A stretch of 64,000 bases of DNA from Rhodoferax sp. Its GTDB lineage: Bacteria > Pseudomonadota > Gammaproteobacteria > Burkholderiales > Burkholderiaceae_C. Positions 20,902 to 56,216 of the stretch are shown here, one piece after another. The stretch spans positions 62,001-126,000 of the forward strand of contig NZ_JAAFIX010000005.1 of the NCBI RefSeq assembly GCF_013297935.1, written 5' to 3'. The position numbers and the translations under genes were made by a program. The notes below the pieces were generated by a model, which did no database searches, was not told the DNA's origin, and saw only the letters and a list, made by a program, of their open reading frames with translations. How positions within the stretch are numbered: the first letter of the stretch is position 1; every line of letters begins with the position of its first letter.

Positions 20902-20948
20902 GCTATGTTTTTTATAGCTACTGGCGCATGCAGAATATGCGCTCGGGG
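20902..20948 (+). repeat. 47-bp dispersed repeat, copy 1
   Basis: This copy lies directly behind argB. It matches the family pattern GCTAT-N6-(A)GGAGCT-N4-GCGC-N10-GGGGCTAG-like end found six more times here, with GCTAT...ATAGCT forming a small hairpin (GCTAT and ATAGC around six T). It could help end the argB transcript. Confidence 0.6.
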
Positions 20949-20956
20949 GTGATTTA

Positions 20957-21649
20957 ATGCGCTTGTTGCTGGTGGAAGACGATGTCATGGTTGCCAGCGG
21001 TATCAAGCTGGGGCTTTCTGACGCGGGCTATGCGGTGGACTGGGTTGGCAGCGCAGAGCGTGCGCTGGATGTCACCCGCACTGAATCCTTTGATGTGGCA
21101 GTGGTCGATATAGGCCTTCCTTTGATGGATGGCCTGGCATTGACCCAGGCACTCCGCAAAGCGGGGCAAGTCATGCCGGTGCTGATACTTACCGCACGCG
21201 ATGCGTTGCAAGACCGCGTTCAAGGCTTAGACATGGGGGCTGACGACTACATGGTCAAGCCGTTCGAGCTGCCCGAGCTGCTGGCGCGCTTGCGGGCCCT
21301 GCTGCGGCGTTCGCAAGCGGCAACTTCCTCCATCTTGAGCTTCGGCCCCTTGGAGCTGGACACCGCGCAGCGCGTGGCATGCCTGCGGGGCGAGGGGCAG
21401 ATAACCCATCCCTTGGAACTCGGCCCGCGTGAATGGACGGTCATGGAGTACCTGCTCTTGCAGGCCCCCAAGCCTGCCAACAAAGACAAGCTTCTCCAGG
21501 CGCTCACCGGTTGGGACAAAGAGATCACCCCGAACGCGGTCGAGGTCTATATCTCCCGCCTGCGTGGCAAGTTAGAGCCCCACGGTATTGCGCTGCGCTC
21601 CATTCGTGGCTTTGGTTACCGGCTAGAGCTCCTTACAGCGCCTGTGTGA
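20957..21649 (+). CDS. OmpR-family response regulator (TctD/QseB-like)
   Basis: This 230-residue protein has a receiver domain with acidic pocket VEDD (residues 6-9), phospho-acceptor D51 in VVDIGLP, and K101 in MVKPFE. The C-terminal winged helix includes LELGPREWTVMEYLL, then NAVEVYISRLRGKLE and IRSIRGFGYRLE-like residues. The stop overlaps the histidine kinase start (TGATG at 21647-21651), so the pair is co-translated. The QseB/TctD-like subgroup controls membrane, virulence or tricarboxylate genes; no target can be named from this window. Confidence 0.92.
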   Translation: MRLLLVEDDVMVASGIKLGLSDAGYAVDWVGSAERALDVTRTESFDVAVVDIGLPLMDGLALTQALRKAGQVMPVLILTARDALQDRVQGLDMGADDYMVKPFELPELLARLRALLRRSQAATSSILSFGPLELDTAQRVACLRGEGQITHPLELGPREWTVMEYLLLQAPKPANKDKLLQALTGWDKEITPNAVEVYISRLRGKLEPHGIALRSIRGFGYRLELLTAPV

Positions 21650-23073
21650 TGTCGGCCGGCATGTCCAAGGGCCTGCAAAGGCGTTTGCTGCTGCTCTTGC
21701 TCTTGCCGCTATTTTTGTTGGCGCTACTTAATGCGTGGTTTGACTACCGGTCTGCTGACAGCGCAGCCTTGCAGCAAGACCGGCAACTGCTCCGGCTGGT
21801 GCCTTTGCTGGCCGACTCCGTGGTGGCTAAGAGCGATCCGGATGCCTCGGTGCTCCTGCTACTGACCGCGCCACCCGTAGACGAGTTTTTAAGTGCCCGC
21901 CCCGGCCTGTCGGCGATGGCGGTTGTCGGGCTCGACGGTTCGGTGCGTGCCGGCTCCGACTGGCTCTTTGGTGTACCGCCCACCACCCGGGAGCCCGCCT
22001 TCTCCAGTGAAGAGTTTGGTGGCGTGACCTACCGCATCGTGAGTCAGCGGGTGCAGACGGTCGCGGGCGAAATGGTGGTGCGCTTGGCCGATGGCTCCGA
22101 CCCCCGGCAGCAGTGGCTGCGCTTGCTGGCCCTGAAAGTGCTCTTGCCCAACCTGATCTTGGCGTTTGCCGGTTTCTTTGCGGTTAGATGGGCTGTGGGC
22201 ACAGCGTTGCGGCCCTTGCTCGATTTGCGCGATGCCTTGGAGCGCCGCTCGCCGCGCGACTTGTCGGCGCTCGACCCGGACACCTCGCCCGACGAAGTCC
22301 GCCCCTTGGTCGTGTCGCTGAATCGATTGTTTGGTCTCGTCAATGCACAAGCCCAGAGCCAAGCGCGCTTTGTGGCCGACGCAGCCCATCAGCTTCGCAC
22401 CCCGCTCGCTGGCCTTCAGGCCCAGGTAGAGGCATGGGCCCAGGTGGTAGAACCGCACGGTTTAAGAGGAAATAGCGCCCTAGCCCCGAAGAGTAGTGCG
22501 CCTACAGCTATTACTTTAGGAGCAGACCAAGTGCTTCGCCTGCGTCAGGCAGCAAGGCGCACCTCTCAGTTGGCCAACCAGCTGTTGGCCTTGTCCCGTG
22601 CCGATGCGCGCAGCGCGAGCATGCAGCCACTGCAGAGGGTGGACTTGCAGCAACTCTGTGAAGCCGTGCTGGAGTCCCAGCTGGATGCGGCCATGGACAA
22701 AAACATCGACTTAGGCTTGGACGCCAGCCCGGTGCATATCAGCGGGCAGGAGTGGCTGCTGCGCGAGTTGATGGTGAACCTTGTCGACAACGCCATCAAA
22801 TACACCCCGACCGGCGGGCATGTCACCATCCGCTGCGGGCAGGGGCCTCAGGCGTTCCTAGAGGTCGAGGACGATGGTCCCGGCGTCCCTGAGGCTGAGC
22901 GCCGTCGGGTGCTGGAGCGTTTTTACCGCGTCGCAGGCACGGCTGTCGAAGGCAATGGCTTGGGGCTAGCCATCGCCAATGAGATCGCGCATGTCCATCG
23001 CAGTCAGCTGGAGCTGTCGCCGGCCGGCAACGGGCACGGCTTGCGGATCACCTTGCGTTTCCCCGCCGAGTGA
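21649..23073 (+). CDS. Sensor histidine kinase (TctE/QseC-like) with a repeat-derived insert
   Basis: ATG 21649 overlaps the regulator stop and is preferred to an open but non-coding-looking N-terminal extension. The 474 residues include TM1 (about 9-27), a periplasmic sensor segment, TM2 (about 155-178), the H-box FVADAAHQLRTPLAGL with H247, an N-box (ELMVNLVDNAIKYTP) and ATP-lid motifs DDGPGVPEAERR and NGLGLAIANEI. Between the H-box helix and its partner helix (LRQAARRTSQLANQLLALS), about residues 270-292, is a low-complexity insert SALAPKSSAPTAITLGA encoded by a copy of the 47-bp repeat. The frame stays open, so the protein is probably still made. Confidence 0.9.
   Translation: MSAGMSKGLQRRLLLLLLLPLFLLALLNAWFDYRSADSAALQQDRQLLRLVPLLADSVVAKSDPDASVLLLLTAPPVDEFLSARPGLSAMAVVGLDGSVRAGSDWLFGVPPTTREPAFSSEEFGGVTYRIVSQRVQTVAGEMVVRLADGSDPRQQWLRLLALKVLLPNLILAFAGFFAVRWAVGTALRPLLDLRDALERRSPRDLSALDPDTSPDEVRPLVVSLNRLFGLVNAQAQSQARFVADAAHQLRTPLAGLQAQVEAWAQVVEPHGLRGNSALAPKSSAPTAITLGADQVLRLRQAARRTSQLANQLLALSRADARSASMQPLQRVDLQQLCEAVLESQLDAAMDKNIDLGLDASPVHISGQEWLLRELMVNLVDNAIKYTPTGGHVTIRCGQGPQAFLEVEDDGPGVPEAERRRVLERFYRVAGTAVEGNGLGLAIANEIAHVHRSQLELSPAGNGHGLRITLRFPAE
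22477..22523 (-). repeat. 47-bp dispersed repeat, copy 2, inside the histidine kinase gene
   Basis: On the minus strand this copy reads GCTCC-N6-AATAGCT-N4-GCGC-N10-GGGGCTAGGGC, aligning position by position with the other copies. It lies in the coding sequence of the sensor kinase and codes on the opposite strand for residues about 277-292. Confidence 0.65.
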
Positions 23074-23138
23074 GGCCGGGCGGCTATGGCGGGTGTGCGA
23101 GAATTTGAGTGACCACTAACTTCTTGCCTCTGCCCCTC

Positions 23139-23786
23139 ATGATGCCTGATACGTCCAATGAGTCATCCGCTCCCGAAGAGCCTGCCCGCAAGCGCTCCAA
23201 GCCGGGCGAGCGCCGGATCCAGATCCTGCAAATGCTGGCCACCATGCTGGAGCAGCCCGGGGGGGAGCGCATCACGACAGCCGCGCTCGCCGCGCGGCTT
23301 GAGGTGAGTGAAGCGGCGCTGTACCGCCATTTCGCCAGCAAGGCGCAAATGTTTGAAGGCTTGATCGACTTCATTGAGCAAACCGTTTTCTCACTGACGA
23401 ACCAGATCATTGAGCGGGAGGCTGCCGACAGCTCACCCGGAGTGGGCGCGCGGCAGGGGCAGCGCATACTGGGCATGGTGGTGCAGTTCGCCGAGAAAAA
23501 CCCCGGCATGGCCCGGGTCATGGTGGGCGATGCACTGGTGCTCGAGCACGAGCGCCTGCAGCAGCGCATGAACGCGCTGTTTGACAAGCTGGAGGCCACC
23601 GTCAAGCAATGCTTGCGGGATGCTCACTTGGCCCACCCCGGCTCAGCAGAGCCCGTTGACCCGCAGGTGCAGGCAGCCGCTGCGGTGGCCTTGGTGGCGG
23701 GGCGTCTGCAGCGATTCGCCCGTTCCGGGTTCAAGCGTTTGCCCTCCGAGCACATGGAAGGCGGGTTGCGCCTGATCCTCGGGTAA
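23139..23786 (+). CDS. slmA: Nucleoid occlusion factor SlmA, TetR family
   Basis: This protein of about 215 residues has a TetR helix-turn-helix (TTAALAARLEVSEAALYRHF) and the region QMFEGLIDFIEQTVFSLTNQ typical of SlmA. SlmA binds DNA sites over the chromosome and blocks FtsZ ring assembly there. The start could be 23139, 23142 or a GTG at 23109; I chose 23139 because residues before it are not conserved. The conserved SlmA C-terminus (GRLQRFARSGFKRLPSEHME) is present. It stands alone between the two-component system and the fatty acid region. Confidence 0.88.
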   Translation: MMPDTSNESSAPEEPARKRSKPGERRIQILQMLATMLEQPGGERITTAALAARLEVSEAALYRHFASKAQMFEGLIDFIEQTVFSLTNQIIEREAADSSPGVGARQGQRILGMVVQFAEKNPGMARVMVGDALVLEHERLQQRMNALFDKLEATVKQCLRDAHLAHPGSAEPVDPQVQAAAAVALVAGRLQRFARSGFKRLPSEHMEGGLRLILG

Positions 23787-23855
23787 ACCCTAGATTTCCT
23801 TAGAAGTGACCCTCTAGAGGGGGTGGGTACTTCACAGTGTCGCGGTAAATGCTGC

Positions 23856-23879
23856 AAAATAGCACGATCGTTCTATTTT
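23856..23879. promoter_or_regulatory. 24-bp palindromic putative TetR operator
   Basis: The left half AAAATAGCACGA and the right half TCGTTCTATTTT are inverted repeats with a single mismatch, centred on CGATCG. The site lies 16 bp before the start of the TetR gene at 23895, a position that suits autorepression and, with no gap to another promoter, control of the downstream acyl-CoA operon. Confidence 0.65.
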
Positions 23880-23894
23880 GATTGCATTCTGCCT

Positions 23895-24575
23895 ATGTCG
23901 CTCGCTGCTGAAATCGCCACAGATCCCGGGCTCGCTGACGCCGGCGCCAAGCGCGCGCCTGCACGCCGCGCCATGCAAAAAGGGCAGCAAACCAAGGCCG
24001 CCATCGTGGAGGCGGCACTGGGCCTCGCCACCCAAATCGGACTCGAAGGTCTGAGCATCGGTGTGCTGGCTGAGGTCACCCAGATGAGTAAATCGGGCGT
24101 GTTCGCCCATTTCGGCTCCCGTGAAGAAATGCAGATTTCGGTGGTCCGTGAATACTTCAGCCGTTTCGAGCAGGAAGTGTTCTACCCCGCGCTGCACGCG
24201 GACCGCGGCTTGCCCAGGGTGCAGGCCTTGTTCGGCAACTGGATGAAACGCGTGGCCGTTGAAATTCAGTCGGGTTGCATCTTCATCAGCGGCGCAGTGG
24301 AGTTCGATGACCGCCCGGGCCCCGTGCGCGACGCGCTGGCCTTCTCCGTCCAAACCTGGTTGAACGCCTTGTACCGCGCAGTAGTCCTGGCCAAGCAATG
24401 CGGTCACCTGCGCGCAGATGCCGATGAGCAGCAAATGGCCTTTGAGATCCACGGCCTGATTCTCGCCCTGCACTACGAAGCCCGTTTTTTGAAGAACCCC
24501 GGCTCCATAGAGCGCGCCAACCAGGGCTTTGACAACATTCTTGCGCGCTACGCCGTAGACGCGGCCCCCCAGTAA
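23895..24575 (+). CDS. TetR-family transcriptional regulator, next to acyl-CoA degradation genes
   Basis: The 226-residue protein has an N-terminal helix-turn-helix (VEAALGLATQIGLEGLSIGV and then LAEVTQMSKSGVFAHFGSRE) and a ligand-binding TetR_C-type domain with the segment ESGCIF-like QSGCIFISGAVEFDDRPGPV. The start is ATG 23895; the longer open frame would run over the operator. It lies 39 bp before the acyl-CoA dehydrogenase gene on the same strand, so it probably represses the operon until a fatty acyl-CoA or related ligand binds. The ligand is not predictable. Confidence 0.85.
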   Translation: MSLAAEIATDPGLADAGAKRAPARRAMQKGQQTKAAIVEAALGLATQIGLEGLSIGVLAEVTQMSKSGVFAHFGSREEMQISVVREYFSRFEQEVFYPALHADRGLPRVQALFGNWMKRVAVEIQSGCIFISGAVEFDDRPGPVRDALAFSVQTWLNALYRAVVLAKQCGHLRADADEQQMAFEIHGLILALHYEARFLKNPGSIERANQGFDNILARYAVDAAPQ

Positions 24576-24614
24576 ACCCACCCATACCTTCACAGTTACT
24601 CAGGAGAAAGCACC

Positions 24615-26411
24615 ATGCCTACTTACACCCCCCCCCTGCGCGACATGCAATTTGTGATGCACGAAGTGCTGAATGTTGCCCAAGATCTGCAGCAAATCCC
24701 CAAGCACGCCGACATCGATGTGGACACCATCAACGCAGTGCTCGAAGAAGGTGGCAAATTTGCGGCCGAAGTGGCGTTCCCCCTGAACATCAGCGGTGAT
24801 GAAGAAGGCTGCACCATCGACCAAGCCACGCACAAAGTGACCACCCCCAAAGGCTTCAAAGAAGCCTACCGCCAATACATTGACGGTGGCTGGGCTGCAT
24901 TGGCCTGCGACCCCGAGTACGGCGGCCAAGGCCTGCCCTATGTGGTCAACGGCATGTTCTACGAAATGCTCAACAGCGCCAACCAAGCCTGGACCATGTA
25001 CCCCGGCCTCACGCACGGCGCCTATGCCGCGCTGGAGACCCACGGCACGCCGGAGCAAAAAGCGACCTACCTGCCCAAGATGACCAGCGGCGAGTGGACC
25101 GGCTCCATGTGCCTGACAGAACCCCATTGCGGAACCGACCTGGGCCTCATGCGCACCAAGGCCGAGCCACAGGCCGACGGCACCTACAAAATCACCGGCA
25201 ACAAGATTTTCATCAGTGCCGGCGAACACGACATGACCGACAACATCATCCACCTGGTGTTGGCCCGCTTGCCGGATGCGCCCGCTGGCATCAAAGGCAT
25301 TAGCTTGTTCATCGTGCCGAAAGTCTTGGTGAATGCTGATGGTTCTCTGGGTGAACGCAACGGCATCTACTGCGGCGGTCTGGAGCACAAAATGGGCATC
25401 CATGGCAACGCCACCTGCCAGATGGTGCTCGACGGCGCCGTGGGCACCATGGTCGGCCAGCCACACAAGGGCATGCAAGGCATGTTCGTGATGATGAATG
25501 CCGCACGCTTGGGCGTGGGCAATCAGTCTCTGGGTCTCACCGAAGTCGCATTCCAGAATGCACTGGCTTACGCCAAAGACCGTATCCAGATGCGCAGCCT
25601 CTCCGGCACCAAAGCCAAAGACAAGCCTGCTGACCCCATCATCGTGCACCCCGATGTGCGCAAGATGCTGATGACGGCCCGGGCCTACGCCGATGGCGGC
25701 CGCGCCTTGCAGGTCTACTGCTCCATGTTGCTGGAAAAAGAGCACAACCACCCCGACGAAAAGGTGCGCAAAGACGCCGGCGAAATGCTGGCGCTGTTGA
25801 CCCCGATCGCCAAAGCCTTCTTGACCGACAACGGCCACATTGCCACCAACGCCTGCATGCAAGTGTTCGGCGGCCATGGCTTCATCAAAGAGTGGGGCAT
25901 GGAGCAATACGTGCGCGACAACCGCATCAACATGATCTATGAAGGCACCAACACCATCCAGTCGCTGGACTTGTTGGGTCGTAAGGTGTTGGGCAACAAC
26001 GGCGCCACCCTCAAGAAGTTCGGCAAATTGGTCGGCGTGCTGGTGGCCGAAGAAGGCGTCAACGAAAAGATGGCCGAATTCATCACCCCGATCGCCATCC
26101 TGGGCGAGCAGATGACCAAGTTCACCACCGAGATCGGTTTCAAGGGCTTCCAGAATCCCGACGAAGTGGGCGCCGCTGCCGTGGACTACCTGCGCGTGGC
26201 GGGCCACTTGGTGTTCGGCTACTTCTTTGCCCGCATGGCCCAGGTGGCTCTGCGCGAAATCGCAGCGGGCAATACCGATCCTTTCTACACCGCCAAGCTG
26301 CAGACCGCACGCTTCTACTTCGCCAAGTTGTTCCCTGAAACCGCGACCTTGATGCGCACTGCCCGCACAGGTTCCAAGGTTTTGATGGACACCGACGCAG
26401 CCTTGGCTTAA
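24615..26411 (+). CDS. Acyl-CoA dehydrogenase, large (~600-residue) form
   Basis: This 598-residue flavoenzyme introduces the alpha-beta double bond in acyl-CoA. MCLTEPHCGTDLGLMRTKAE is the FAD/substrate signature, then IFISAGEHDMTDN, GLEHKMGIHGNATCQMVLDG and the C-terminal INMIYEGTNTIQSLDLLGRK with the catalytic glutamate (YEGT). An extra N-terminal segment (PLRDMQFVMHEVLNV) and a C-terminal domain of about 130 residues place it in the FadE/DmdC-like group. An AGGAGA precedes the start. It is first in a series ending with the thiolase at 31049. Confidence 0.93.
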   Translation: MPTYTPPLRDMQFVMHEVLNVAQDLQQIPKHADIDVDTINAVLEEGGKFAAEVAFPLNISGDEEGCTIDQATHKVTTPKGFKEAYRQYIDGGWAALACDPEYGGQGLPYVVNGMFYEMLNSANQAWTMYPGLTHGAYAALETHGTPEQKATYLPKMTSGEWTGSMCLTEPHCGTDLGLMRTKAEPQADGTYKITGNKIFISAGEHDMTDNIIHLVLARLPDAPAGIKGISLFIVPKVLVNADGSLGERNGIYCGGLEHKMGIHGNATCQMVLDGAVGTMVGQPHKGMQGMFVMMNAARLGVGNQSLGLTEVAFQNALAYAKDRIQMRSLSGTKAKDKPADPIIVHPDVRKMLMTARAYADGGRALQVYCSMLLEKEHNHPDEKVRKDAGEMLALLTPIAKAFLTDNGHIATNACMQVFGGHGFIKEWGMEQYVRDNRINMIYEGTNTIQSLDLLGRKVLGNNGATLKKFGKLVGVLVAEEGVNEKMAEFITPIAILGEQMTKFTTEIGFKGFQNPDEVGAAAVDYLRVAGHLVFGYFFARMAQVALREIAAGNTDPFYTAKLQTARFYFAKLFPETATLMRTARTGSKVLMDTDAALA

Positions 26412-26460
26412 AAAAGTACCGCGTTTCCCCTTCCACCTTTACTAACGACAGGAGACTTTC

Positions 26461-26895
26461 ATGATTCGCAACACGCTCGTAATTGCTCTCAGCTTGACCG
26501 CTACCGCCGCCATGGCGCAAATGAGCCCCGTGGGACTCTGGCGCCAGGTCGACGACAAAACCGGTCTGGCCAAGTCGGAGATCCGCATTGTTGAAGAGAA
26601 CGGTGTCGTCGTAGCGCGCATTGAAAAGCGGCTGGACCCGGCTGCCAAGCCGGAAGACAAGTGCGATGAATGCAAGGACGACCGCAAAGGCAAGCCGATC
26701 GTCGGGCTTGAAATCATCCGTGGCGTGAAAAAGCTGGAAGGCAAAGACGTATGGGACGGCGGCAAGATTCTGGACCCCGCTGAGGGCAAGGAATACAACG
26801 CCCGCCTGACCCCGATCGAGGGCGGCAAAAAACTGGAGATGCGCGGATCCATCGCCTTCTTCGGCCGCACGCAAACCTGGACCCGCATCCAGTAA
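26461..26895 (+). CDS. DUF2147 secreted protein
   Basis: The 144-residue protein has a Sec signal peptide (MIRNTLVIALSLTATAAMAQ, cleavage after AMA). The DUF2147 fold follows: PVGLWRQVDDKTGLAKSEIR, VVARIEKRLDP, CDECKDDRKGKPIVGLEIIR, WDGGKILDPAEGKEYNARLT and EMRGSIAFFGRTQTWTR. DUF2147 proteins are lipocalin-like periplasmic proteins without assigned biochemistry. Lying between an acyl-CoA dehydrogenase and a FadB-type gene with short gaps, it may handle a hydrophobic substrate in the periplasm; this is inference. CDEC is a possible metal or redox motif. Confidence 0.88.
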   Translation: MIRNTLVIALSLTATAAMAQMSPVGLWRQVDDKTGLAKSEIRIVEENGVVVARIEKRLDPAAKPEDKCDECKDDRKGKPIVGLEIIRGVKKLEGKDVWDGGKILDPAEGKEYNARLTPIEGGKKLEMRGSIAFFGRTQTWTRIQ

Positions 26896-26913
26896 ACCAA
26901 TTCAGGAAAACCT

Positions 26914-29313: not shown

Positions 29314-29321
29314 TTGGCGCC

Positions 29322-29843: not shown

Positions 29844-29855
29844 AGGAGTTTCCTC

Positions 29856-31049: not shown

Positions 31050-31062
31050 GCGCTCACCCAGA

Positions 31063-31085
31063 AGGCCACCTCCGGGTGGCCTTTT
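31063..31085 (+). terminator. Rho-independent terminator after thiolase gene
   Basis: AGGCCACC and GGTGGCCT form an 8-bp GC-rich stem around TCCG-like loop bases, followed by TTTT. It lies 13 bp after the thiolase stop. Confidence 0.8.
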
Positions 31086-31948: not shown

Positions 31949-31981
31949 TCCAATCACGTATCCATTTTTGAGCGAGCGACC

Positions 31982-32746
31982 ATGCAAGACATCCTGATCC
32001 ACACCGACGCCGGCATCACCACCATCACCCTGAACCGGGTCGCAAAGAAGAACTCTTTCACCCAGGCCATGTACGCCGCCTGCGCCGATGCGCTGGGCGC
32101 AGCGCGCGACGACGCTGCCGTGCGCGTGGTGGTGTTCCAGGGCGACGCTACCGTGTTCAGCGCCGGTAACGACATTGGTGATTTTTTGGGTGCTCCGCCC
32201 AAGGAGCAGGACGCACCGGTGTTCCGCTTCCTGCGCGCGCTGGCATCGTTCCCCAAGCCTATCGTGGCGGCGGTGTGCGGGCCGGCAGTCGGTATCGGCA
32301 CCACCATGCTGTTCCATTGCGACCTGGTCTATGCAGGCGACAACGCAGCGTTTTCTATGCCCTTCGTGAACCTTGGCCTGTGCCCCGAAGCGGCCTCCAG
32401 CCTGCTGGTGCCCCAAATGATGGGCTACCACCGCGCCGCCGAAGCGCTGTTGATGGGCGAGCCCTTCATGGCCGAAGCCGCACTGGAAGTGGGGCTGGCC
32501 AACCGTGTAGTGCCGCCCACTGAAGCCAATGCCGTCGCCCAGGCCCAAGCCCGCAAGCTGGCCGCCAAGCCGCTGGCCTCGCTCATTGAAACCAAGCGCT
32601 TGCTGAAAAAAGGCCAGATGGAGCAGGTGCTGGCCCGCATCGATGAAGAAGCGCTGAGCTTTGGCAAGATGCTCGGCGAGCCCGCCGCCAAGGAGGCTTT
32701 CACCGCCTTCATGGAAAAGCGTAAACCCGACTTCAGCAAAGTTTAA
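31982..32746 (+). CDS. Enoyl-CoA hydratase/isomerase family protein
   Basis: This 254-residue crotonase-fold protein has VFQGDATVFSAGNDIGDFLG (oxyanion hole), AAVCGPAVGIGTTMLFHCDL and FVNLGLCPEAASSLLVPQMM. The FSAGNDI form, with N-D instead of the usual A-D-L, and the acidic residue in PEAAS fit peroxisomal-type isomerase/hydratases. The C-terminus ends KPDFSKV. An eroded second copy of this tail is found at 32765-32825, showing a past tandem duplication. Confidence 0.88.
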   Translation: MQDILIHTDAGITTITLNRVAKKNSFTQAMYAACADALGAARDDAAVRVVVFQGDATVFSAGNDIGDFLGAPPKEQDAPVFRFLRALASFPKPIVAAVCGPAVGIGTTMLFHCDLVYAGDNAAFSMPFVNLGLCPEAASSLLVPQMMGYHRAAEALLMGEPFMAEAALEVGLANRVVPPTEANAVAQAQARKLAAKPLASLIETKRLLKKGQMEQVLARIDEEALSFGKMLGEPAAKEAFTAFMEKRKPDFSKV

Positions 32747-32764
32747 AGTCGACAGCCGAAGGCT

Positions 32765-32825
32765 GCCCGCGGAGCGTGGTTTACGCTTTCGCTAAAAACG
32801 CTAGCCCGACTTCAGTAAGGTCTGA
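32765..32825 (+). pseudogene. Ghost tail of a duplicated enoyl-CoA hydratase gene
   Basis: The last codons of the intact hydratase (KRKPDFSKV and stop, 32717-32746) recur at about 32793-32825 as stop-K-R-stop-PDFSKV-stop. PDFSKV is unchanged at the protein level while three of its codons differ at synonymous positions, and the stop has changed from TAA to TGA. Upstream bases (TTTACGCTTTC against TTCACCGCCTTC) also match weakly. The two in-frame stops show that this copy is dead; only about 50-60 bp of it can be recognised. Confidence 0.7.
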
Positions 32826-32842
32826 ATTTCAAGTGTTTTAGG

Positions 32843-32889
32843 CTGCTAGCGCTCGTTCTATATGCGCAATCAGCTCCTAAAACAATAGC
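32843..32889 (-). repeat. 47-bp dispersed repeat, copy 3
   Basis: On the minus strand the copy reads GCTAT-N6-AGGAGCT-GATT-GCGC-N10-AGCGCTAGCAG, in register with the other copies. The flanks GTTTTAGG (32835) and CCTAAAAC (32876) make an extra 8-bp inverted repeat. It lies in the gap between the hydratase and the TetR gene. Confidence 0.7.
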
Positions 32890-32968
32890 AATGTGAGGTG
32901 CGGCGCTGCCTTGACGCCGCAGCTTCAGAGCACCAAAATACTCGCGTTTTCCCTTGGTATTTTTGCCA

Positions 32969-32982
32969 AGCAAGCGCTTGCT
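32969..32982. promoter_or_regulatory. Perfect 14-bp palindrome AGCAAGCGCTTGCT, putative TetR operator
   Basis: The site lies 30 bp before the TetR start at 33013, where an autoregulatory operator is expected. CAAGCGCTTG-type palindromes are common binding sites for TetR-family regulators of fatty acid genes. Function is inferred. Confidence 0.5.
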
Positions 32983-33012
32983 AAAAATAGATGGGGCTGG
33001 TATGGTCGACAC

Positions 33013-33690
33013 ATGACCCCTACCGAGACCCTGTCTGCCGCACCTGCTGAAGATGCCGCGCCACCCGAGGCCAAACGCCCGCGCGGCCGCCCCCGCAAAA
33101 CCGAAGACGAGCGCGATGACGGCAACCGCCGCCACGAGCTGCTCAAGGCAGCAGCCCAGCTCTTCCGCCGCCAAGGGTTCGCCGCCACTACCACCCGCGA
33201 CATCGCCAACGCGGCCGGCATGCAAAGCGGCTCGCCGTTCTACCATTTCAAAAGCAAAGACGCGCTCTTGTTCGCCGTCATGGAGGCGGGCATGCACTCC
33301 GCCTTGAGCAACCAGCAGCGGGTGCTGGGCGATGCGGCTTACGAAGCCCTGCCGCCGGCCGACAAGCTGCGTCGCTTGGTGCAAGCCCACTTTGAGGTCC
33401 TTCTCGGGCCGGGCAACGACTTTGTGCCGGTCATGCTCTACGAGTGGCGCTCTCTGCAGCGGCCGCAACGCAAAGTGCTGCACAAGCTGATTGCTGACTA
33501 CGAAGCCCTGTGGATGCCGGTGTTGCAAGCCCTGCACGCAGCGGGCCAGCTGAAGGCACCGGTGGGCGTGGCCCGCTTGTTGATTTTGGGTGCGCTGAAT
33601 TGGTCAGTGCAATGGTTCGACCCCCTCAAGGGGGCCACGGTCGAGGCGCTCGGCGAATACGCCGTAGCCATGTTTATTCAGGAGCAGTGA
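33013..33690 (+). CDS. TetR-family transcriptional regulator
   Basis: This 225-residue protein has an arginine/proline-rich N-terminal arm (KRPRGRPRKTEDER, an AT-hook-like GRP motif) and a TetR helix-turn-helix (LLKAAAQLFRRQGFAATTTR and then DIANAAGMQSGSPFYHFKSK). The C-terminal domain is of the AcrR/FadR sort. Its stop overlaps the SDR start (TGATG at 33688-33692), so it is co-translated with the catabolic genes and most likely senses an acyl-CoA intermediate. Confidence 0.87.
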   Translation: MTPTETLSAAPAEDAAPPEAKRPRGRPRKTEDERDDGNRRHELLKAAAQLFRRQGFAATTTRDIANAAGMQSGSPFYHFKSKDALLFAVMEAGMHSALSNQQRVLGDAAYEALPPADKLRRLVQAHFEVLLGPGNDFVPVMLYEWRSLQRPQRKVLHKLIADYEALWMPVLQALHAAGQLKAPVGVARLLILGALNWSVQWFDPLKGATVEALGEYAVAMFIQEQ

Positions 33691-36268: not shown

Positions 36269-36271
36269 TTC

Positions 36272-36318
36272 GCTATATTTTTAGGAGCTGCTCGCGCATA
36301 TTCCGTGGGGGCTAGTGG
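36272..36318 (+). repeat. 47-bp dispersed repeat, copy 4
   Basis: This copy reads GCTAT-N6-AGGAGCT-GCTC-GCGC-ATATTCCGTG-GGGGCTAGTGG. With copy 7 it is the best-conserved pair, sharing length and all anchor blocks. It lies 4 bp after the thioesterase stop. Confidence 0.75.
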
Positions 36319-36502
36319 TGCAAATGACCAAGAAGTACGCCAACTGTGAAGCTTGTTTGTTTCATTGCTTGCGCAGGTAGCTTGGGTCCAGTTTTTTGAT
36401 CTAAGGACTGTGTGAAGTGAACGGCTGTTCTGCAGCGAAATCGGTATCAAAAAGTCCTCCCGCGACATACCCGAGTCATCCTGCATCGCACTCCGGTATG
36501 CA

Positions 36503-43851: not shown

Positions 43852-43988
43852 GTTGTCTCCTCTGGAAGTGCAGTTCGGTTATAGCGGGGCGCCCTTCATT
43901 CGCCGATAGGGTTCCCACTGATCTCGTTGTCCCCTAGAAAGCCCCTGTGGCTGATGGGTCATCACATGCGAATTGGAGGTCTTTTTGC

Positions 43989-44035
43989 CTTCTGGCCCTT
44001 GTGGAATATGCGCAAGCAGCTATGAAAAGTATAGC
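43989..44035 (-). repeat. 47-bp dispersed repeat, copy 5
   Basis: On the minus strand this copy reads GCTAT-N7-ATAGCT-GCTT-GCGC-ATATTCCACA-AGGGCCAGAAGG, matching copies 1 and 4. It sits 1 bp past the stop of the YciA-like gene, so it may be part of its 3' end. Confidence 0.7.
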
Positions 44036-44036
44036 G

Positions 44037-46353: not shown

Positions 46354-46358
46354 ACCCC

Positions 46359-46967: not shown

Positions 46968-47042
46968 CGGTTTTCCTTGCTGCAAGCGTGGGTTTCCGGC
47001 GGGGCCGTGTGTATCCATGCGTTTCGCGCATAATCCGCGCCC

Positions 47043-48020: not shown

Positions 48021-48126
48021 GAGTTGCATACCGAATTTGCATCGCACGCCAAGCAATCAGCATTGGCGGCGCTGTCGGGGGCTCGCTAGAGTGGGCCCTC
48101 CGGTTCACCCCGTCGTTGGAGTTGAC

Positions 48127-49041: not shown

Positions 49042-49092
49042 GCGGTAGCACGGCCTCTGCAACAGGCCGGCAGGTTTTGGGACAATAGGGGC

Positions 49093-50139: not shown

Positions 50140-50873
50140 AGGCCATTGACTGGGCTGCCCCCTGGCTGCTGCCTTGGCGCAGCGTGGGGGAGGGTGTTGC
50201 CTTGCAGGTGGAGGCCGGGCACACCGTGGTGCAGGCACTCAACGCACAGGGCGGTGCGCCGGTGCGCTTTATCCCCCAGTCCGAGCTACCGCAGGGCGCG
50301 GCGTACGAGCAGCACATTTTCGATACCGGCGGTGTTCCAACCCGGGACGGCCTGCACGATTTCTTCAATGGCCTGTGTTGGATCCACTTCCCGCGCGCCA
50401 AGCAAAGGCTCAACCAACTACAGGCCGAGCAAATCGCCCACACCGGCATCCAGCCGGTGCGCGGCCCGGCCCGGGATGCCTTGACCGTCTTTGATGAAAA
50501 TGCCGCGCTGCTCATGGCGCCGGATGTTGTGTGGGATGCCTTGGCGGCCAAGGACTGGACCGCGCTGTTCGGGCCCCTGCGCCCTCTGTGGCAGGAGTCG
50601 ACCTTGGTGCTCTTCGGCCATGCGCTGATCGAAAAGCTGGTTTACCCACGAAAACCCATTACCGCCCATGTATTCCGTGCGCAGGCTGCTACTAATTCGA
50701 TAGCGGACCTGGACGTCTGGCTGGCGGAGTCGCTCAACGCACCCATGCTGGCGGCCAAGCCCTTCGCCCATTTGCCGGTGTTGGGGGTGCCCGGTTGGTG
50801 GCCGGAGAATGAGGCGGCGGACTTCTATGCCGATACCAGCGTCTTTCGGGCCCCCAGATCACGCCTTGGCTGA
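50124..50873 (+). CDS. DUF3025 protein with a repeat-derived segment
   Basis: This protein of about 249 residues, from GTG 50124, is a DUF3025 member: [40 protein letters not shown] and then [19 protein letters not shown] and [20 protein letters not shown]. Its biochemical function is unknown to me. A degenerate copy of the 47-bp repeat lies in it (50658-50704) and codes for about residues 179-194 ([15 protein letters not shown]). Overlap with pyrC suggests co-transcription. Confidence 0.85.
50658..50704 (-). repeat. 47-bp dispersed repeat, copy 6 (degenerate), inside the DUF3025 gene
   Basis: On the minus strand GCTAT-N6-AGTAGCA-GCCT-GCGC is in register with the other copies, but the last 20 bases are weakly matched. 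It is coding on the plus strand. Confidence 0.4.
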
Positions 50874-50893
50874 GGGCTGCAGTGCGGCGCTGC

Positions 50894-51907
50894 TCAAGCC
50901 TTGAGCTTGAGCAAATGCACCATGACGCGGGCGGTCGTCTGGTCGAAGTCCAATTGCTCGTGAAAGTCTTTGCCGGTGAGCCAGGAGGCGTCCCAGTGGT
51001 TTTGTTTGAGCACCGCCTTCCAACTCTCGTGCTGGGTGGCTTGGCGCACAGCGTCCACCATGGCAGTCTGCCGCTCTAGCGGCACCGACTTACCGGTGAA
51101 GACTCCGCGCCAATTGGCCATTTCCACCTGCATGCCCTGATCACGGATAGAGGGAATGCCGAAAGACGCTTTGCGCGATGACACGCCGATTGCCCGCAGT
51201 TGCCCGCCCGCCAGCAGCGCACTGAATTCGCTGTAGCCCGAAATTCCCACCACCGCTTTTCCGCTCAGCACCGCAGACGCCACCTCCGCACCGCCGGCAA
51301 AAGGCAGGTAGGTCAAGTCCTCAGGGTTCGCGCCGGTAGCGCGGGCGAACACGCCGGAGAAGATGTGATCCACGCCTCCCGCGGACCCGCCTGCTACTGC
51401 CACCGCTTTCAGGTTGGCTTTCATGGCGGCCGAGAGGTCGGAGGCACTCTTGATGGGCGAGTTGGCTGCCACCACCATGACCAGGTAGTCGCTGGTGAGC
51501 CGGGCCAAGGGTGCCAGCGACCCCAAGTCGATGGCCGGTTTTTGCAGCGCTACGGCACCGACCATGACGGTGCCGCTCATGATGAGCGTGTTCGGGTCCG
51601 CCGCATATTTCTCGGCGTAATAGGCCAGGCCGATGGTGCCGCCTTTGCCACCCTTGTTTTCATACTCAATGTCGTCCACCACCCCGGCAGACATGAGGGA
51701 TGCACCCAGGGCGCGACCCGTCTGGTCCCAGCCACCCCCGGCGTTGGCCGGGATGACGATTCGCAACTTGGCGGCCAATTTCGCTGGAGCCTTGGGTTTG
51801 GCCCCCGCGGCCTTGGTGGCTTGGGCCCAAGAGATGCCGGACATGCCAGCGAGCGCGCCCGCAGTCCAGCAGGTCAGCCATTGGCGGCGATCCAGTTTTT
51901 TCATCAA
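50894..51907 (-). CDS. TTT-family (TctC/Bug) extracytoplasmic solute receptor
   Basis: This 337-residue protein has a twin-arginine-like or Sec signal (KKLDRRQWLTCWTAGALAGM) and then LAAKLRIVIPANAGGGWDQT, the Bug-family start. VEIANW-like MQVEMANWRGVFTGKSVPLE and WLTGKDFHEQLDFDQTTARV complete the family pattern. These receptors bind carboxylates such as citrate for the TctAB permease. No tctAB is next to it, as is common for this expanded Burkholderiales family. Confidence 0.88.
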   Translation of the reverse strand: MMKKLDRRQWLTCWTAGALAGMSGISWAQATKAAGAKPKAPAKLAAKLRIVIPANAGGGWDQTGRALGASLMSAGVVDDIEYENKGGKGGTIGLAYYAEKYAADPNTLIMSGTVMVGAVALQKPAIDLGSLAPLARLTSDYLVMVVAANSPIKSASDLSAAMKANLKAVAVAGGSAGGVDHIFSGVFARATGANPEDLTYLPFAGGAEVASAVLSGKAVVGISGYSEFSALLAGGQLRAIGVSSRKASFGIPSIRDQGMQVEMANWRGVFTGKSVPLERQTAMVDAVRQATQHESWKAVLKQNHWDASWLTGKDFHEQLDFDQTTARVMVHLLKLKA

Positions 51908-52105
51908 CGATGTCTCATGTTGTTATGGGGAAGCAGCATTCTCCCAGCCATTGACCGGGAATCAGGTTGCCGTACTTGTAACAGCGTGTGGGCCCTGAAA
52001 GGCCATAAACTTCATGGGCTCAAGCGGCGGGGTGCTTGAATTCAGGCTCCGCGCCCCTACCATTCGCCTCAACGGCCCCTGTGGGCGCTTTTCCAAGAGA
52101 GAAAT

Positions 52106-52987
52106 ATGAAACGCATTCTTTTGTTTGTTTTGACCAACGTGCTGGTGGTTGCCGTGCTCGGCATCGTGGCCAGCGTGCTGGGCGTGAACAAGTTTTTGAC
52201 ATCCAATGGACTGAACCTGGGCGCCCTGCTCGGCTTCGCCCTGATCATGGGTTTTGGCGGCGCCATCATCTCCTTGTTGATCAGCAAGCCTATGGCCAAG
52301 TGGACCTCGGGCGTGCAGATCATCGAGCAGCCCCGCAACGCGGATGAGGCCTGGATTGTGGACACCGTTCGCAAATTCGCCGACAAGGCAGGCATCGGCA
52401 TGCCCGAAGTCGGTATTTTTGAAGGCGAGCCCAACGCGTTTGCCACCGGTGCGTTCAAAAACAGCGCATTGGTGGCGGTGTCGACCGGCCTGCTGCGCGG
52501 CATGACGCGTGAAGAAATCGAGGCCGTTATCGGTCACGAAGTGGCCCACATTGCCAACGGCGACATGGTCACCATGACCCTGATTCAGGGCGTGATGAAC
52601 ACCTTTGTGGTGTTCATCAGCCGCGTGGTCGGCTATGCGGTGGACAGCTTTCTGCGCAAGGGCGACGACCGCGAAAGCAGCGGCCCCGGCATTGGCTACT
52701 ACGTGACCACCATCGTGCTCGACATCGTGCTCGGCTTTGCCGCTGCCATGGTGGTGGCCTGGTTCAGCCGCCAGCGGGAATTCCGTGCTGACGCTGGCGC
52801 CGCTGAGCTGATGGGCCGCAAGCAACCCATGATGAACGCCTTGGCCCGTTTGGGCGGCATGACGCCGGGCGAGTTGCCCAAGAGCGTGGCGGCTATGGGG
52901 ATTGCCGGCGGCATCGGCCAGCTGTTTTCGACCCACCCGCCCATTGAAGAGCGCATTGCCGCCCTGCAAGCCCGCAACAGCCAGTAA
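52106..52987 (+). CDS. htpX: Membrane protease HtpX
   Basis: The 293-residue M48 metallopeptidase has two N-terminal helices ([20 protein letters not shown] and [20 protein letters not shown]) and the zinc motif HEVAH (H144-H148) in [17 protein letters not shown]. The third ligand lies in [14 protein letters not shown]. Two further hydrophobic segments follow the motif. HtpX degrades misfolded inner-membrane proteins. A strong terminator follows. Confidence 0.95.
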
Positions 52988-53022
52988 AACGGCTAGCGCG
53001 TGATTGCGCTGCTCCCTCTCAA

Positions 53023-53056
53023 AAAGCCCCTTGCCGCAGACGCGCCAAGGGGCTTT
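53023..53056 (+). terminator. Rho-independent terminator after htpX
   Basis: AAAGCCCCTTG and CAAGGGGCTTT form an 11-bp stem with a 12-nt loop, followed by GGTTTTGG. It lies 36 bp after the htpX stop. Confidence 0.8.
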
Positions 53057-53103
53057 GGTTTTGGGGCGTGCTACAAACGCCTTTTACCTTTCAGTGTTGC
53101 ACC

Positions 53104-53733
53104 ATGGAACTCTCTACCTGGCTCGCCTTTTTTGCTGCTTCCTGGGCTATCAGCATTTCTCCCGGGGCGGGCGCAGTAGCCGCGATGAGCGCCGGGCTCA
53201 ACCATGGTTTCCAGCGCGGCTACATCACTACGCTGGGCCTGGTGCTGGGCATATGGACGCAGATTGTTGTGGTGGGCGTGGGTCTGGGCGCGGTGGTGGC
53301 TGCCAGTGGCACGGCGTTTTTGGTCATCAAGTGGGCAGGGGTGGCCTATCTGGTGTGGCTGGGCATCCAGCAGTGGCGCGCACCCGCAGTGCCTTTGGCG
53401 ACCCGGGCGGAAGACACTCCCGCAGTCACCGCGCGCACCATGATTTTCCGCGCGTGGGTCATCAACGCGCTCAACCCCAAGGGCACCGTGTTTTTGCTGG
53501 CCGTGGTGCCGCAGTTTTTGAACCTGGCGCAGCCGCTTGCGCCCCAGTACCTGGTGATTGCCGCCACGCTCGCCTTTACCGACTTGGTGGTCATGGCCGG
53601 CTACACCGCATTGGCCGCACGGGTGCTGCGTGCGCTCAAATCCGAGTCTCACCTCAAGGCCATGAACCGCGTGTTCGGCGGTCTGTTTGTGGCCGCAGGT
53701 ACCTTGCTCGCGTTGTTCAAACGAACCGCTTAA
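53104..53733 (+). CDS. LysE/RhtB-family amino acid exporter
   Basis: From ATG 53104 there are 209 residues with about six membrane helices. WAISISPGAGAVAAMSAGLN and HGFQRGYITTLGLVLGIWTQ are the conserved LysE/RhtB N-terminal motif, and FRAWVINALNPKGTVFLLAV is the second. Members export homoserine, threonine, leucine or other amino acids. The next gene starts 3 bp after its stop. Confidence 0.9.
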   Translation: MELSTWLAFFAASWAISISPGAGAVAAMSAGLNHGFQRGYITTLGLVLGIWTQIVVVGVGLGAVVAASGTAFLVIKWAGVAYLVWLGIQQWRAPAVPLATRAEDTPAVTARTMIFRAWVINALNPKGTVFLLAVVPQFLNLAQPLAPQYLVIAATLAFTDLVVMAGYTALAARVLRALKSESHLKAMNRVFGGLFVAAGTLLALFKRTA

Positions 53734-53736
53734 GCC

Positions 53737-54414
53737 GTGTCGATAGCCCACATAGCCGCCCGGAGTCGCGACGTCCTGCGTTTGCATGGCTGGTTGCTGA
53801 TGGCATGGGCTGCCGCCGTCGGGTTGGCAAGCTCAGCGGTCTTGCTCCATGGCGTGGGCGTGCACTCCTTGGCGGTGCGCTATGCGGTCGGCGCAGGCGC
53901 GATTTACTTTCTTGGCTTTGTGGCGGGGGGCTGGGTATATGCCCGCTGGTGGAACCGGTCTCAGGAGGCGGCTCGCGCAGAACTGCAACATGCGGATGCT
54001 GCCGACTTTCTGGCCTATGCCCAGCAGGAAGAACGCATCCGCAAGCGTTTCCAGTGGGGCGATGGCGTGGATTTAGGCGGCGGCTGGAGTGGGGATGACC
54101 CGTTCAGCGCCATTCTGGCGGTGTTGGTGTTGGTGATGTTGGCCGCATTGGCTTTGCTGGCGCTGGGGCACTTCCCGCTGCTGGCCACCGAGGCGCTAGC
54201 GGGTTTCTTGGCGGAGGTGGTGCTGGAGTTCGTGATCGGCGCTGTCATTGCCCGCCAAGTCATGAAGCCGCGCAGCCTGGACGACTATTGGGTCGTGATG
54301 ATGCGCAAAACATGGCTTGCGGGCTTAGCTTTTGTGATGGTAGCCGGCTTTACAGGCTGGCTTTTGCAGACGCTACATCCCGACGCGCTGACCTTCTTCC
54401 AGGTGCTTCACTAG
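53737..54414 (+). CDS. Hypothetical membrane protein, 225 residues
   Basis: I do not recognise the family. The protein starts with GTG and has about five hydrophobic segments (for example GWLLMAWAAAVGLASSAVLL, ILAVLVLVMLAALALLALGH and LAGLAFVMVAGFTGWLL). A cytoplasmic part (WWNRSQEAARAELQHADAAD) and a glycine-rich stretch DGVDLGGGWSGDDP lie between them. It lies 3 bp after the LysE-type exporter and its 3' end overlaps the convergent FAD gene by 4 bp. Confidence 0.7.
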   Translation: MSIAHIAARSRDVLRLHGWLLMAWAAAVGLASSAVLLHGVGVHSLAVRYAVGAGAIYFLGFVAGGWVYARWWNRSQEAARAELQHADAADFLAYAQQEERIRKRFQWGDGVDLGGGWSGDDPFSAILAVLVLVMLAALALLALGHFPLLATEALAGFLAEVVLEFVIGAVIARQVMKPRSLDDYWVVMMRKTWLAGLAFVMVAGFTGWLLQTLHPDALTFFQVLH

Positions 54415-56216
54415 CGCGGCTTGAGCATGTCCAGCGCCAGAGCCTCTGCCACTTTGATGCCGTCCACCCCCGCCGACAAAATACCGCCGGCATAGGAGGC
54501 ACCTTCGCCTGCGGGGTAGAGGCCGCGCACATTGGTGCACTGCAGGTCCTCGCCACGCGGGATTTTGATGGGGCTGGAGGTGCGCGTTTCCACCCCGGTG
54601 AGCACGGCGTCTGCCATGTCAAAGCCTTTGATCTTGCGGCCGAACACCGGCAGGGCTTCGCGCATGGCGTCAATCGCGTAGGCGGGCAGGGCAGGGGCCA
54701 GGTCACCCAGCTTCACACCGGGTTTGTACGACGGAGTAACGCTGCCGAAGTCGGTGGACGGTTTGGCCGCAATAAAGTCGCCCACCAACTGGCCGGGCGC
54801 CTCGTAGGTGCTGCCGCCCAAGGTGTAGGCGCCGCTCTCCAGCTGGCGCTGCAGGGCGATGCCCGACATCGGGTGGGCAGCCTTCGGGTCTTGGGCCTTC
54901 ATGGCGGCAGCCTCGGCGGCATAGCGCTTGCCTTTCTCTTCGCCGAAGGCGTGTACAAAAGCGGCTTCGTCGTCCGGGTAATCAGGCGGGTCAATGCCGA
55001 CCACCATGCCGGCGTTGGCATTGCGCTCGGCGCGCGAATACTGGCTCATGCCGTTGGTGACCACCCGGCCCGGCTCGCTGGTGGCGGCCACCACCGTGCC
55101 GCCCGGGCACATGCAAAAGCTGTACACCGCGCGTCCGTTGGCGGCGTGGTGCACCAGTTTGTAGTCGGCCGCACCCAACAGCGGGTGGCCGGCGTGGCGA
55201 CCCCAGCGAGCGCGGTCGATCACGCTTTGCGGGTGCTCGATGCGAAAGCCCACCGAGAAGGGCTTGGCGTGCATGGCCACGCCCCGCTCATAGAGCATGG
55301 CAAAGGTGTCGCGCGCGCTGTGGCCCAGCGCCATGACCACGTGACTGGCGGGCAGCTCGTACACGGTGCCGTTTTGAAGATTTTCGACCTCTAGCCCTCG
55401 TACTGATTGCGCGGGTAGCTCCTGATTTAATAGCAAATTATTGACCCGCTGCTCAAAACGGATCTCGCCACCCAGCGCAATGATTTGCTCGCGAATGCCT
55501 TCCACCACCTTCACCAGCTTGAAGGTGCCGATGTGGGGGTGCGCCTCGTACAAAATTTCTGACGGGGCGCCGTGCTCCACAAACTCGTGCATGACCTTGC
55601 GGCCCAGAAAGCGCGGGTCTTTGATCTGGCTGTAGAGCTTGCCGTCTGAAAACGTGCCGGCGCCGCCTTCGCCGAACTGCACATTGCTCTCGGGCTTGAG
55701 CGTCTTTTTGCGCCACAGGCCCCAAGTGTCTTTGGTGCGCTGGCGCACTGTGGTTCCGCGCTCCAGCACGATGGGCTTCAACCCCATTTGCGCCAGCACC
55801 AGCGCGGCAAACATGCCGCAGGGCCCGAAGCCCACCACCACCGGGCGCGCCCCTAGGTCCGCCGGGGCCTGGGCCACGGGGTGGTAGGCCATGTCGGGGG
55901 TAGCGCTGATGTGCGGGTGGGCGGCGTGCTGCACCAAGAGGCGGCTCTCCAGCAGCGGATCGGTCAGCGTGATGTCTACGATGTACACCGCGAGCAAGTC
56001 CACCTTACGGGCATCAAAACTGCGTTTGAACACGTGCAGCGTGGCAATGGCCGCCATGTCGATGCCCAAGGCCTGCGCGCACAGGCGCTGCAGGGCGTCG
56101 ACGGGGTGGGCGACCGGCGCGCGGTCGGCGTCGGTTTCCGAGGGTGCGTCGGCGGCGCGGCGCGCCTCCACGGGCAGGGCGGAGAGGGGGAGTTTGAGTT
56201 CGGTGATGCGGATCAT
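54411..56216 (-). CDS. FAD-dependent NAD(FAD)-utilising dehydrogenase, with a repeat-derived segment
   Basis: The start at 56216 (MIRITELKLPLSALP) gives 601 residues. An N-terminal region (LHVFKRSFDARKVDLLAVYI) precedes the dinucleotide motif VVVGFGPCGMFAALVLAQMG. Then come VQFGEGGAGTFSDGKLYSQI, SFCMCPGGTVVAATSEPGRV and GLYPAGEGASYAGGILSAGV. These are the marks of the conserved uncharacterised FAD protein family of COG2509 type. The reaction is unknown. A 47-bp repeat at 55388-55434 codes for about residues 261-277 (LLLNQELPAQSVRGLE). Confidence 0.88.
   Translation of the reverse strand: MIRITELKLPLSALPVEARRAADAPSETDADRAPVAHPVDALQRLCAQALGIDMAAIATLHVFKRSFDARKVDLLAVYIVDITLTDPLLESRLLVQHAAHPHISATPDMAYHPVAQAPADLGARPVVVGFGPCGMFAALVLAQMGLKPIVLERGTTVRQRTKDTWGLWRKKTLKPESNVQFGEGGAGTFSDGKLYSQIKDPRFLGRKVMHEFVEHGAPSEILYEAHPHIGTFKLVKVVEGIREQIIALGGEIRFEQRVNNLLLNQELPAQSVRGLEVENLQNGTVYELPASHVVMALGHSARDTFAMLYERGVAMHAKPFSVGFRIEHPQSVIDRARWGRHAGHPLLGAADYKLVHHAANGRAVYSFCMCPGGTVVAATSEPGRVVTNGMSQYSRAERNANAGMVVGIDPPDYPDDEAAFVHAFGEEKGKRYAAEAAAMKAQDPKAAHPMSGIALQRQLESGAYTLGGSTYEAPGQLVGDFIAAKPSTDFGSVTPSYKPGVKLGDLAPALPAYAIDAMREALPVFGRKIKGFDMADAVLTGVETRTSSPIKIPRGEDLQCTNVRGLYPAGEGASYAGGILSAGVDGIKVAEALALDMLKPR
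55388..55434 (-). repeat. 47-bp dispersed repeat, copy 7, inside the FAD dehydrogenase gene
   Basis: On the minus strand, which is also the coding strand, it reads GCTAT-TAAATC-AGGAGCT-ACCC-GCGC-N10-AGGGCTAGAGG, equal in length and anchor blocks to copy 4. It is translated in frame as part of the protein. Confidence 0.75.

Follow-up and report, generated by a model that had tools for sequence, protein, structure and literature searches.

What is the repeat that recurs seven times, between genes and inside them, in a 64,000-nucleotide stretch of a Rhodoferax sp. genome (assembly GCF_013297935.1, contig NZ_JAAFIX010000005.1, positions 62,001 to 126,000; hereafter the window)? An original prediction, made from the letters of the window, described a dispersed family with a 47-bp unit and suggested a non-autonomous mobile or REP-like (repetitive extragenic palindrome) element. 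We found that the seven copies belong to a 66-nt unit that is dispersed in hundreds of copies through this genome and occurs in its relatives. In the reading that we favour, and to which we give about an even chance of being right, they would represent an old insertion element of Comamonadaceae, 66 bp in length, that is probably linked to a Y1 transposase of the TIRYT type and now maintained as a protein-binding site.

We added 400 kb of the same genome to the window and aligned 49 copies with at most three mismatches, six of them window copies. The similarity extended over 66 nt rather than 47 bp, and its edges were sharp, which we count in favour of an insertion element; the majority sequence is TGCTATCAATTTAATAGCTGCTTGCGCATATTCTACGAGGGCTAGAGGCCTATTTGATTCTAAATT. 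An independent 66-nt profile, built from the 43 non-window copies and used for all E-values of window copies given below, matched all seven predicted sites (E 6.6e-13 to 1.1e-7). On the original 47 nt, a leave-one-out matrix scored five copies at 36–47 bits, with the best non-member at ≤8.7 bits; the copy at 50658 reached 19.6 bits, compared with 15.1 for the top score in three shuffles, and the copy at 22477 lay at background (6.6 bits). The latter, on the minus strand, starts with GCTCC rather than the predicted GCTAT. The predicted surroundings were correct: three copies lie within reading frames (a QseC-like kinase, a DUF3025 protein, and a FAD-dependent protein), and the genes beside the intergenic copies encode ArgB, a PRK11688/PaaI-like thioesterase, and YciA, the last below its NCBIfam cut-off.

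Across the whole genome, a pattern allowing up to three mismatches gave 197 forward and 193 reverse matches, compared with none for the reversed pattern and none in one first-order shuffle (400 kb), an excess over chance. A profile of the 49 copies found 68 copies at E ≤ 1e-3 in a 464-kb sample of the genome, and this number extrapolates to a genome-wide total of ~530. Matches to the pattern were present in 38 of 120 genomes of the family, this one included, with at least five in 28 of the 120; the highest counts were 390 (this genome) and 370 (genome G035). Outside the family, 4 of 146 genomes of the order had one three-mismatch match each, which is the level of the reversed control. Named records that bear the element are Comamonadaceae, consistent with the original prediction, and the element is found on plasmids of Rhodoferax antarcticus, Polaromonas W9N, and Comamonadaceae OS-4, which we count in favour of the insertion-element reading. 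Since the named plasmids belong to Comamonadaceae, and TIRYT relatives named to genus do too with few exceptions, we take the family to be Comamonadaceae. Genus-specific versions of the element include, among those listed, AGGCAATAAATACGCC in genome G031 and AGCGCTTGNTGGANAAGCGCT in G085 and G003. A consensus search of phages gave no match. The accessible parts of the open-licence PubMed Central literature, including PMC3733652, PMC6006769, PMC2817692, PMC2755013, PMC3110155, and PMC5374385, held no description of this element that we could find.

Next, we considered where the copies lie relative to genes. Genes in the 464-kb sample were called with a purpose-built codon-model caller that finds too few genes in the window's first 20 kb. 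By these calls, 43 of the 68 copies are intergenic. Convergent gene pairs, with 22 intervals of at least 66 nt, have 14 of them, tandem pairs (120 intervals) have 28, and divergent pairs (52 intervals) have one. Within −25 to +10 nt of the stops of 413 genes, element-gene pairs numbered 18 in antisense and 16 in sense. The 25 genic copies are split between sense (12) and antisense (13); all 13 antisense copies share one frame and 10 of the 12 sense copies share another. The two frames, used by 23 of the 25, are the only stop-free frames of the consensus, which supports the favoured reading. The 22 encoded residues resemble, as judged by eye, linkers, membrane segments, and in one instance a lipoprotein signal. 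On these gene calls, the comparison shows that the unit is bounded and dispersed and lies either at the 3′ ends of genes or, in frame, within proteins. We also noted that a ComEC-like competence protein (L051:14223-16724) holds two in-frame elements, in different domains.

The genic copies could be compared with solved homologues in four proteins, and surplus residues were seen at the element in all four, again in line with an insertion. The QseC-like kinase has 17 residues more than Escherichia coli QseC (3jz3), the RumA-like protein 12 more than RumA (1uwv), the YfiH-like protein 8 more than YfiH (1rw0), and the YadB-like protein ~34 more than YadB (1nzj), the last across an unaligned region. 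In an RpoS-like protein the element falls outside the aligned part. Five element-holding domains are also longer than their Pfam models (HisKA +19, tRNA_U5 +15, tRNA-synt_1c +21, Competence +19, and DUF4131 +21). As five other genera hold a similar-sized insert at the same place in qseC, this gene offers no empty comparison inside the family. Judging from these alignments, coding copies are accompanied by extra sequence.

A REP-like unit would be expected to form a hairpin, and the element does look palindromic. However, consensus folding and pairing tests showed no surplus of pairing where the stem varies and no RNAalifold structure; compensating arms were seen in two single orthologous copies. 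The bias towards folding was modest (mean z −1.2) and equal on both strands. Pairing covariation was absent, and by these tests the element is not a hairpin REP. The right arm varies (ATAGC, GGAGC, GTAGC, and others), so that a GTAG-like foot is one variant among several, and the element copies do not have an obligatory GT[AG]G foot. A different property emerged at the AT tracts in columns 7–10, 51–54, and 61–64, which consist of A runs or T runs: TpA steps numbered 2, 2, and 12, while 24.6, 26.4, and 24.3 were expected from independent columns. (One of the 68 copies, which is not 66 nt long, was left out of identity, pairing, and TpA counts, leaving 67.) The scarcity of TpA steps points to A-tract shape rather than pairing. 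Furthermore, 115 of 117 copies in seven sequence sets have no net indel. A search of the window and of 100 kb from the same genome placed no Rfam family on the element.

To place the copies in time, we used syntenic blocks from five congeneric genomes; their identity to the window over 16.8 kb is 87.7–88.7% for G120, G126, G153, and G177 and 84.1% for G168. Where both flanks align, the window copies mostly have counterparts, with exceptions at qseC, at 32825, and at the PaaI-like site. The copy at 20901..20966 (+, E 7e-9) begins 1 nt past the argB stop, overlaps the start of a response-regulator gene with its 3′ end, and is found in all five congeners. So are the copies at 43971..44036 (−, E 5e-10), which abuts the stop of the yciA-like gene; at 50640..50705 (−, E 1.1e-7), a degenerate copy that matches profile positions 2–42 only and lies antisense and in frame in the DUF3025 gene; and at 55370..55435 (−, E 6.6e-13), which lies in the sense direction in the gene for the FAD-dependent protein and is one of the two sense copies that depart from the frame of the others. 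The copy at 22459..22524 (−, E 2.8e-8), antisense and in frame in the HisKA domain of the QseC-like kinase, has a profile match in four congeners, and the fifth (G120) is of equal length but below threshold. Between the genes for an enoyl-CoA hydratase and a TetR protein, the copy at 32825..32890 (−, E 9e-12) is orthologous in G120, G126, and G177; G153 and G168 hold ~1 kb of other sequence there, with an element of its own. Lastly, the copy at 36271..36336 (+, E 1e-11), 2 nt past the stop of the PRK11688/PaaI-like thioesterase gene, is shared by G177, G126, G168, and G153, and G120 is without it. These alignments show an element at least as old as the genus. The genus blocks hold no clean recent empty site, and no target duplication was seen there.

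Beyond the genus, the gene end after argB is occupied in different ways. The genus has a sense copy, G031, G010, G072, and G040 have antisense element-like sequence in versions of their own (compared by eye), and in G064, G085, G027, G003, and G088 argB runs directly to the regulator gene. At these loci, the same gene end is thus shown to carry the element in some genera and to lack it in others, and to carry it in opposite orientations. In G113, a GC-rich repeat follows argB (L120); it may be of the BRE kind discussed below. Among the 67 copies of the Rhodoferax genome, pairwise identity averages 54% and reaches at best 82%, and the mismatch spectrum is flat.

Several other features of the window were noted. 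Next to the copy at 43971, a stretch GATAGGGTTCCCACTGATCTCGT (43905-43927) is nearly invariant in six congeners amid variable surroundings and may serve the neighbouring transporter operon as an operator. Three similar AAGCAAGCGCTTGCT palindromes lie at 15015-15037, 32590-32612, and 32968-32990; two are near the TetR-family gene (33013-33690) beside acyl-CoA genes, and the palindromes may be its operators. A direct repeat of ~33 nt with units 79 nt apart (32715-32826) sits beside the copy at 32825, and one unit is apparently missing in G177. Elsewhere, the window encodes a class A RNase P RNA (62106-62450).

Upon comparing the copies of the six genomes, we noted a switch at column 39 of the element. 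The base is G in 57 of 67 copies of the Rhodoferax genome under study, in 9 of 13 of G168, and in 5 of 9 of G120, and it is C in all 10 copies of G126, all 11 of G153, and 5 of 6 of G177. At 7 of 10 orthologous loci, the window genome, G120, and G168 (G) differ in this way from G126, G153, and G177 (C); three of the seven were scored in three genomes only, and the comparison left out the PaaI-site copy of G177, which has a 1-nt deletion, and the non-orthologous copies of G153 and G168 at 32825. Neighbouring variable bases are locus-specific, and the next best columns reach four loci. The switch extends into coding sequence: by hand, it was read as Gly/Ala in the FAD gene and as silent in the DUF3025 gene. 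A survey of 61 genomes of the genus found 23 with at least 40 matches to either pattern (up to two mismatches; the two counts overlap), 13 of them with more G-type and 10 with more C-type matches. In a tree of the window, from which 8 of 36 sequence chunks were left out, G177 pairs with G126 and G153 with G168, each with 100% support, compared with 82% for the one other branch; given these pairings, at least two shifts at column 39 are needed. TpA avoidance, rare indels, and the column-39 switch together suggest selection on the element as double-stranded DNA.

The original prediction had proposed a search for a cognate REP-associated transposase, and this search yielded a candidate, a single-copy Y1 transposase of the TIRYT type (L031:1126-1893). 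It is the one Y1 transposase match in the genome; PF01797 is its only Pfam match, and it scores below the cut-off of the NCBIfam model for REP-associated tyrosine transposases. Residues H60, H62, and Y84 (HUH and Tyr motifs) are invariant among 12 aligned TIRYT proteins, and we take Y84 to be the catalytic tyrosine. The Rhodoferax protein is without the RGNNRQ and NPVRAG motifs of most other aligned TIRYTs, with the HUH and Tyr motifs intact. TIRYT-like matches were found in 114 of the 120 family genomes, and the gene adjoins a GATase_2/gltB-like gene in 20/21, 19/20, and 79/80 loci tested; because of this neighbour, it has hardly moved. On the 3′ side, 15 of 21 loci have GGGGAC[AG] and 6 have AGGGAC[AG]; on the 5′ side, 10 of the 21 have GGGGTCAG at a distance of up to 110 nt (both by eye). 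These ends resemble the signature GGGGWSAS described for the terminal inverted repeats (TIRs) of TIRYTs (PMC3733652); most GGGGWSAS TIRYTs fall in subclass 2.1, near whose genes no REP-like sequence is reported (PMC6006769). From its ends, the associated gene probably belongs to this subclass; for the C-terminal HTH domain that marks subclass 2.1, the Pfam comparison returned nothing beyond PF01797.

Antisense element-like sequence lies between the TIRYT stop codon and GGGGACA. Just past the stop, the element profile matched clearly in G035 (2e-9), G071 (5e-5), and G031 (4e-4), and more weakly in G072, G004, G099, and the Rhodoferax genome itself; a named locus, L243, also had a match (5e-6). 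An HP1-like motif past the stop was present in 14 of 19 element-bearing and in 4 of 22 element-free genera (p=5e-4), the expression having been written after viewing the first 21 loci, which supplied 2 of the 22 element-free genera (the other 20 were fetched later). No element profile match came from the 24 TIRYT loci of other families, of which two have hardly any 3′ flank. The link between element and TIRYT thus rests on a half-motif and a few full copies.

How might these observations fit together? We postulate that the element was spread by the Y1 HUH transposase resident in the family, a TIRYT-type enzyme encoded by a single-copy gene that has element-like sequence at its end. The element would work as the REP partner of a RAYT (REP-associated tyrosine transposase) does, but as a longer, weakly paired unit. 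Its copies would have been retained through a sequence- and shape-specific protein that binds them as double-stranded DNA, putatively via a dyad (GCTAT-N7-ATAGC) that has an A-tract at its centre, a core (GCGCA/GSGCTAG), and two further A-tracts spaced by about one helical turn. Maintenance by such a binder could explain why indels are rare and why the base change occurs in step. We put forward a wider proposal more tentatively and rather doubt it: several hundred fixed ancient copies would shift a recognition base in place and in step by clade, even within coding genes, and a trans-acting factor, possibly a domesticated TIRYT with a double-stranded-DNA domain, would read and maintain them as a system of sites across the genome, with dialects, that had its origin in an insertion element. 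Of the class first suggested for the repeat, a non-autonomous mobile or REP-like element, dispersal, indifference to orientation, and a candidate transposase were upheld; a hairpin, recent movement, and target duplication were not seen. If the favoured reading is right, a large bacterial family has long kept hundreds of copies of an undescribed element, also inside ordinary proteins (sensor kinase, RumA-like, YadB-like, and ComEC-like). It would be a test case for the role of domesticated TIRYT-class Y1 transposases and for concerted evolution of dispersed sites without movement.

Several observations weigh against the favoured reading. There is no near-identical pair among the 67 copies, hence no sign of recent transposition; the sole empty site in the genus blocks, the PaaI-like site of G120, is a probable loss; and replication-strand bias is absent in the 464-kb sample (p=0.18 for 28 vs 40, the split both at 25 and at 50 kb; at 10 kb the split is 31 vs 37). 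In proteins, the surplus is never 22 residues, and in the YfiH-like protein, with its surplus of 8, both element ends align with native residues; for these reasons a clean 66-bp insertion is unsupported. Pfam length surplus is not diagnostic, since it occurs in the element-free domains CobD (+15), SLT_2 (+15), and FAD-depend_C (+31), and is missing from the element-holding SQS_PSY, Cu-oxidase_4, and DUF3025 (199 aa on 213 positions). The rarity of indels is seen through a profile built on ungapped copies, which favours ungapped matches. The column-39 partition was chosen post hoc, and two of the nine other 3|3 partitions also reach seven loci, again at column 39; the argB, qseC, and 32825 loci do not fit the split, and G120, although grouped with G, leans towards C genome-wide (166 vs 207) and is therefore best called mixed. 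As to the transposase, TIRYT-like genes are far more widespread in the family than the element, and the Rhodoferax TIRYT has no GGGGTCAG in the preceding 110 nt. Among the best 80 of 584 named TIRYT loci found, only five have an antisense profile match, one of them strong, and 18 of 413 genes have an antisense copy at −25 to +10 of the stop in any case.

Some of these points suit a serious rival, to which we give a rather low probability: a family of immobile sites, uptake-signal-like or bound by a nucleoid protein, that arose in place and was homogenised by biased transformation or by selection. A/T tracts ~10 bp apart beside a core, use of both orientations, genome-specific dialects at fixed positions, and the native ends and small surplus of the YfiH copy would all be expected of such sites, and the element may resemble the uptake sequences of Pasteurellaceae and Neisseriaceae. 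Sites that arose in place would account less readily for a sharp 66-nt unit, for surplus residues in 4/4 proteins, or for one gene end occupied in opposite orientations across genera, and the copies are far more degenerate than known uptake cores. It is unlikely, in our view, that the copies are fossils, that is, remnants of a dead mobile element that are fixed, decay neutrally, and persist at gene ends and in proteins only because they are hard to remove. The low mean identity (54%), the flat mismatch spectrum, the orthology of most copies across the genus, and the partial match of the copy at 50640 are what such decay would leave; however, diverged copies without net indel (115/117), TpA avoidance, and a base difference that recurs at 7 of 10 orthologous loci are not.

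An RNA element, in which a transcribed hairpin acts as a 3′-UTR stabiliser or terminator, appears very improbable. It would suit the sites at stop codons and between convergent genes and the modest folding bias, but sense and antisense copies are about equally frequent at gene ends (16 vs 18) and within genes (12 vs 13), the folding bias is the same on both strands without covariation, and Rfam is silent on the element in the sequence searched. That chance k-mers had been aligned by eye is refuted, with next to no probability left, by 390 matches against none in the control and none in the shuffle, and by an independent profile that finds all seven copies.

DNA uptake sequences (USS/DUS) comprise hundreds of short sites with clade dialects and A/T tracts beside a core. 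The element resembles them in all of these respects except length, being much longer, and it is more degenerate. A miniature inverted-repeat transposable element was rejected since, as read by eye, one end of the 66-nt consensus is not an inverted copy of the other. BRE, the betaproteobacterial repeat elements (75–91 bp, 69% GC in Bordetella, often in tandem, up to 29 copies; PMC3110155), are likewise scattered through Comamonadaceae genomes, both near the ends of genes and within coding regions. By that description, we rejected identity with BRE: our element differs in length and composition (~40% GC), has hundreds of copies, and has no real match outside the family, with no dispersed matches in the 146 other genomes of the order. 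Rickettsia palindromic elements (RPE; PMC3733652) share with it the in-frame copies within many protein genes, but differ in sequence and host, and our element is read on either strand, with a single frame for each. With TIRYT/TIRtron systems it shares an associated gene with HUH and Tyr motifs and, in many genera, GGGG-type ends. Unlike TIRYT subclass 2.1 as described in PMC6006769, a large dispersed family here has sequence in common with the TIRYT unit at its 3′ end; and unlike the moderately abundant families of TIRs themselves mentioned in PMC3733652, the copies are without a GGGG TIR. The closest parallel is with REP elements and their RAYT/TnpAREP partners, described as units of 20–40 bp with a GT[AG]G foot and a single-copy Y1 transposase (PMC2817692, PMC3733652, PMC6006769). 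Both have hundreds of dispersed copies, mostly extragenic near gene ends (here 390 matches, and 43 of 68 sampled copies intergenic) with some in frame within genes, and one single-copy Y1 transposase gene, in our case apparently flanked by related sequence. Our unit differs from REP in its 66 nt, in a foot that is not obligatory, in the lack of pairing support, and in a transposase of TIRYT type; if the proposed link is true, the element would be a REP-like partner for a transposase class reported without one.

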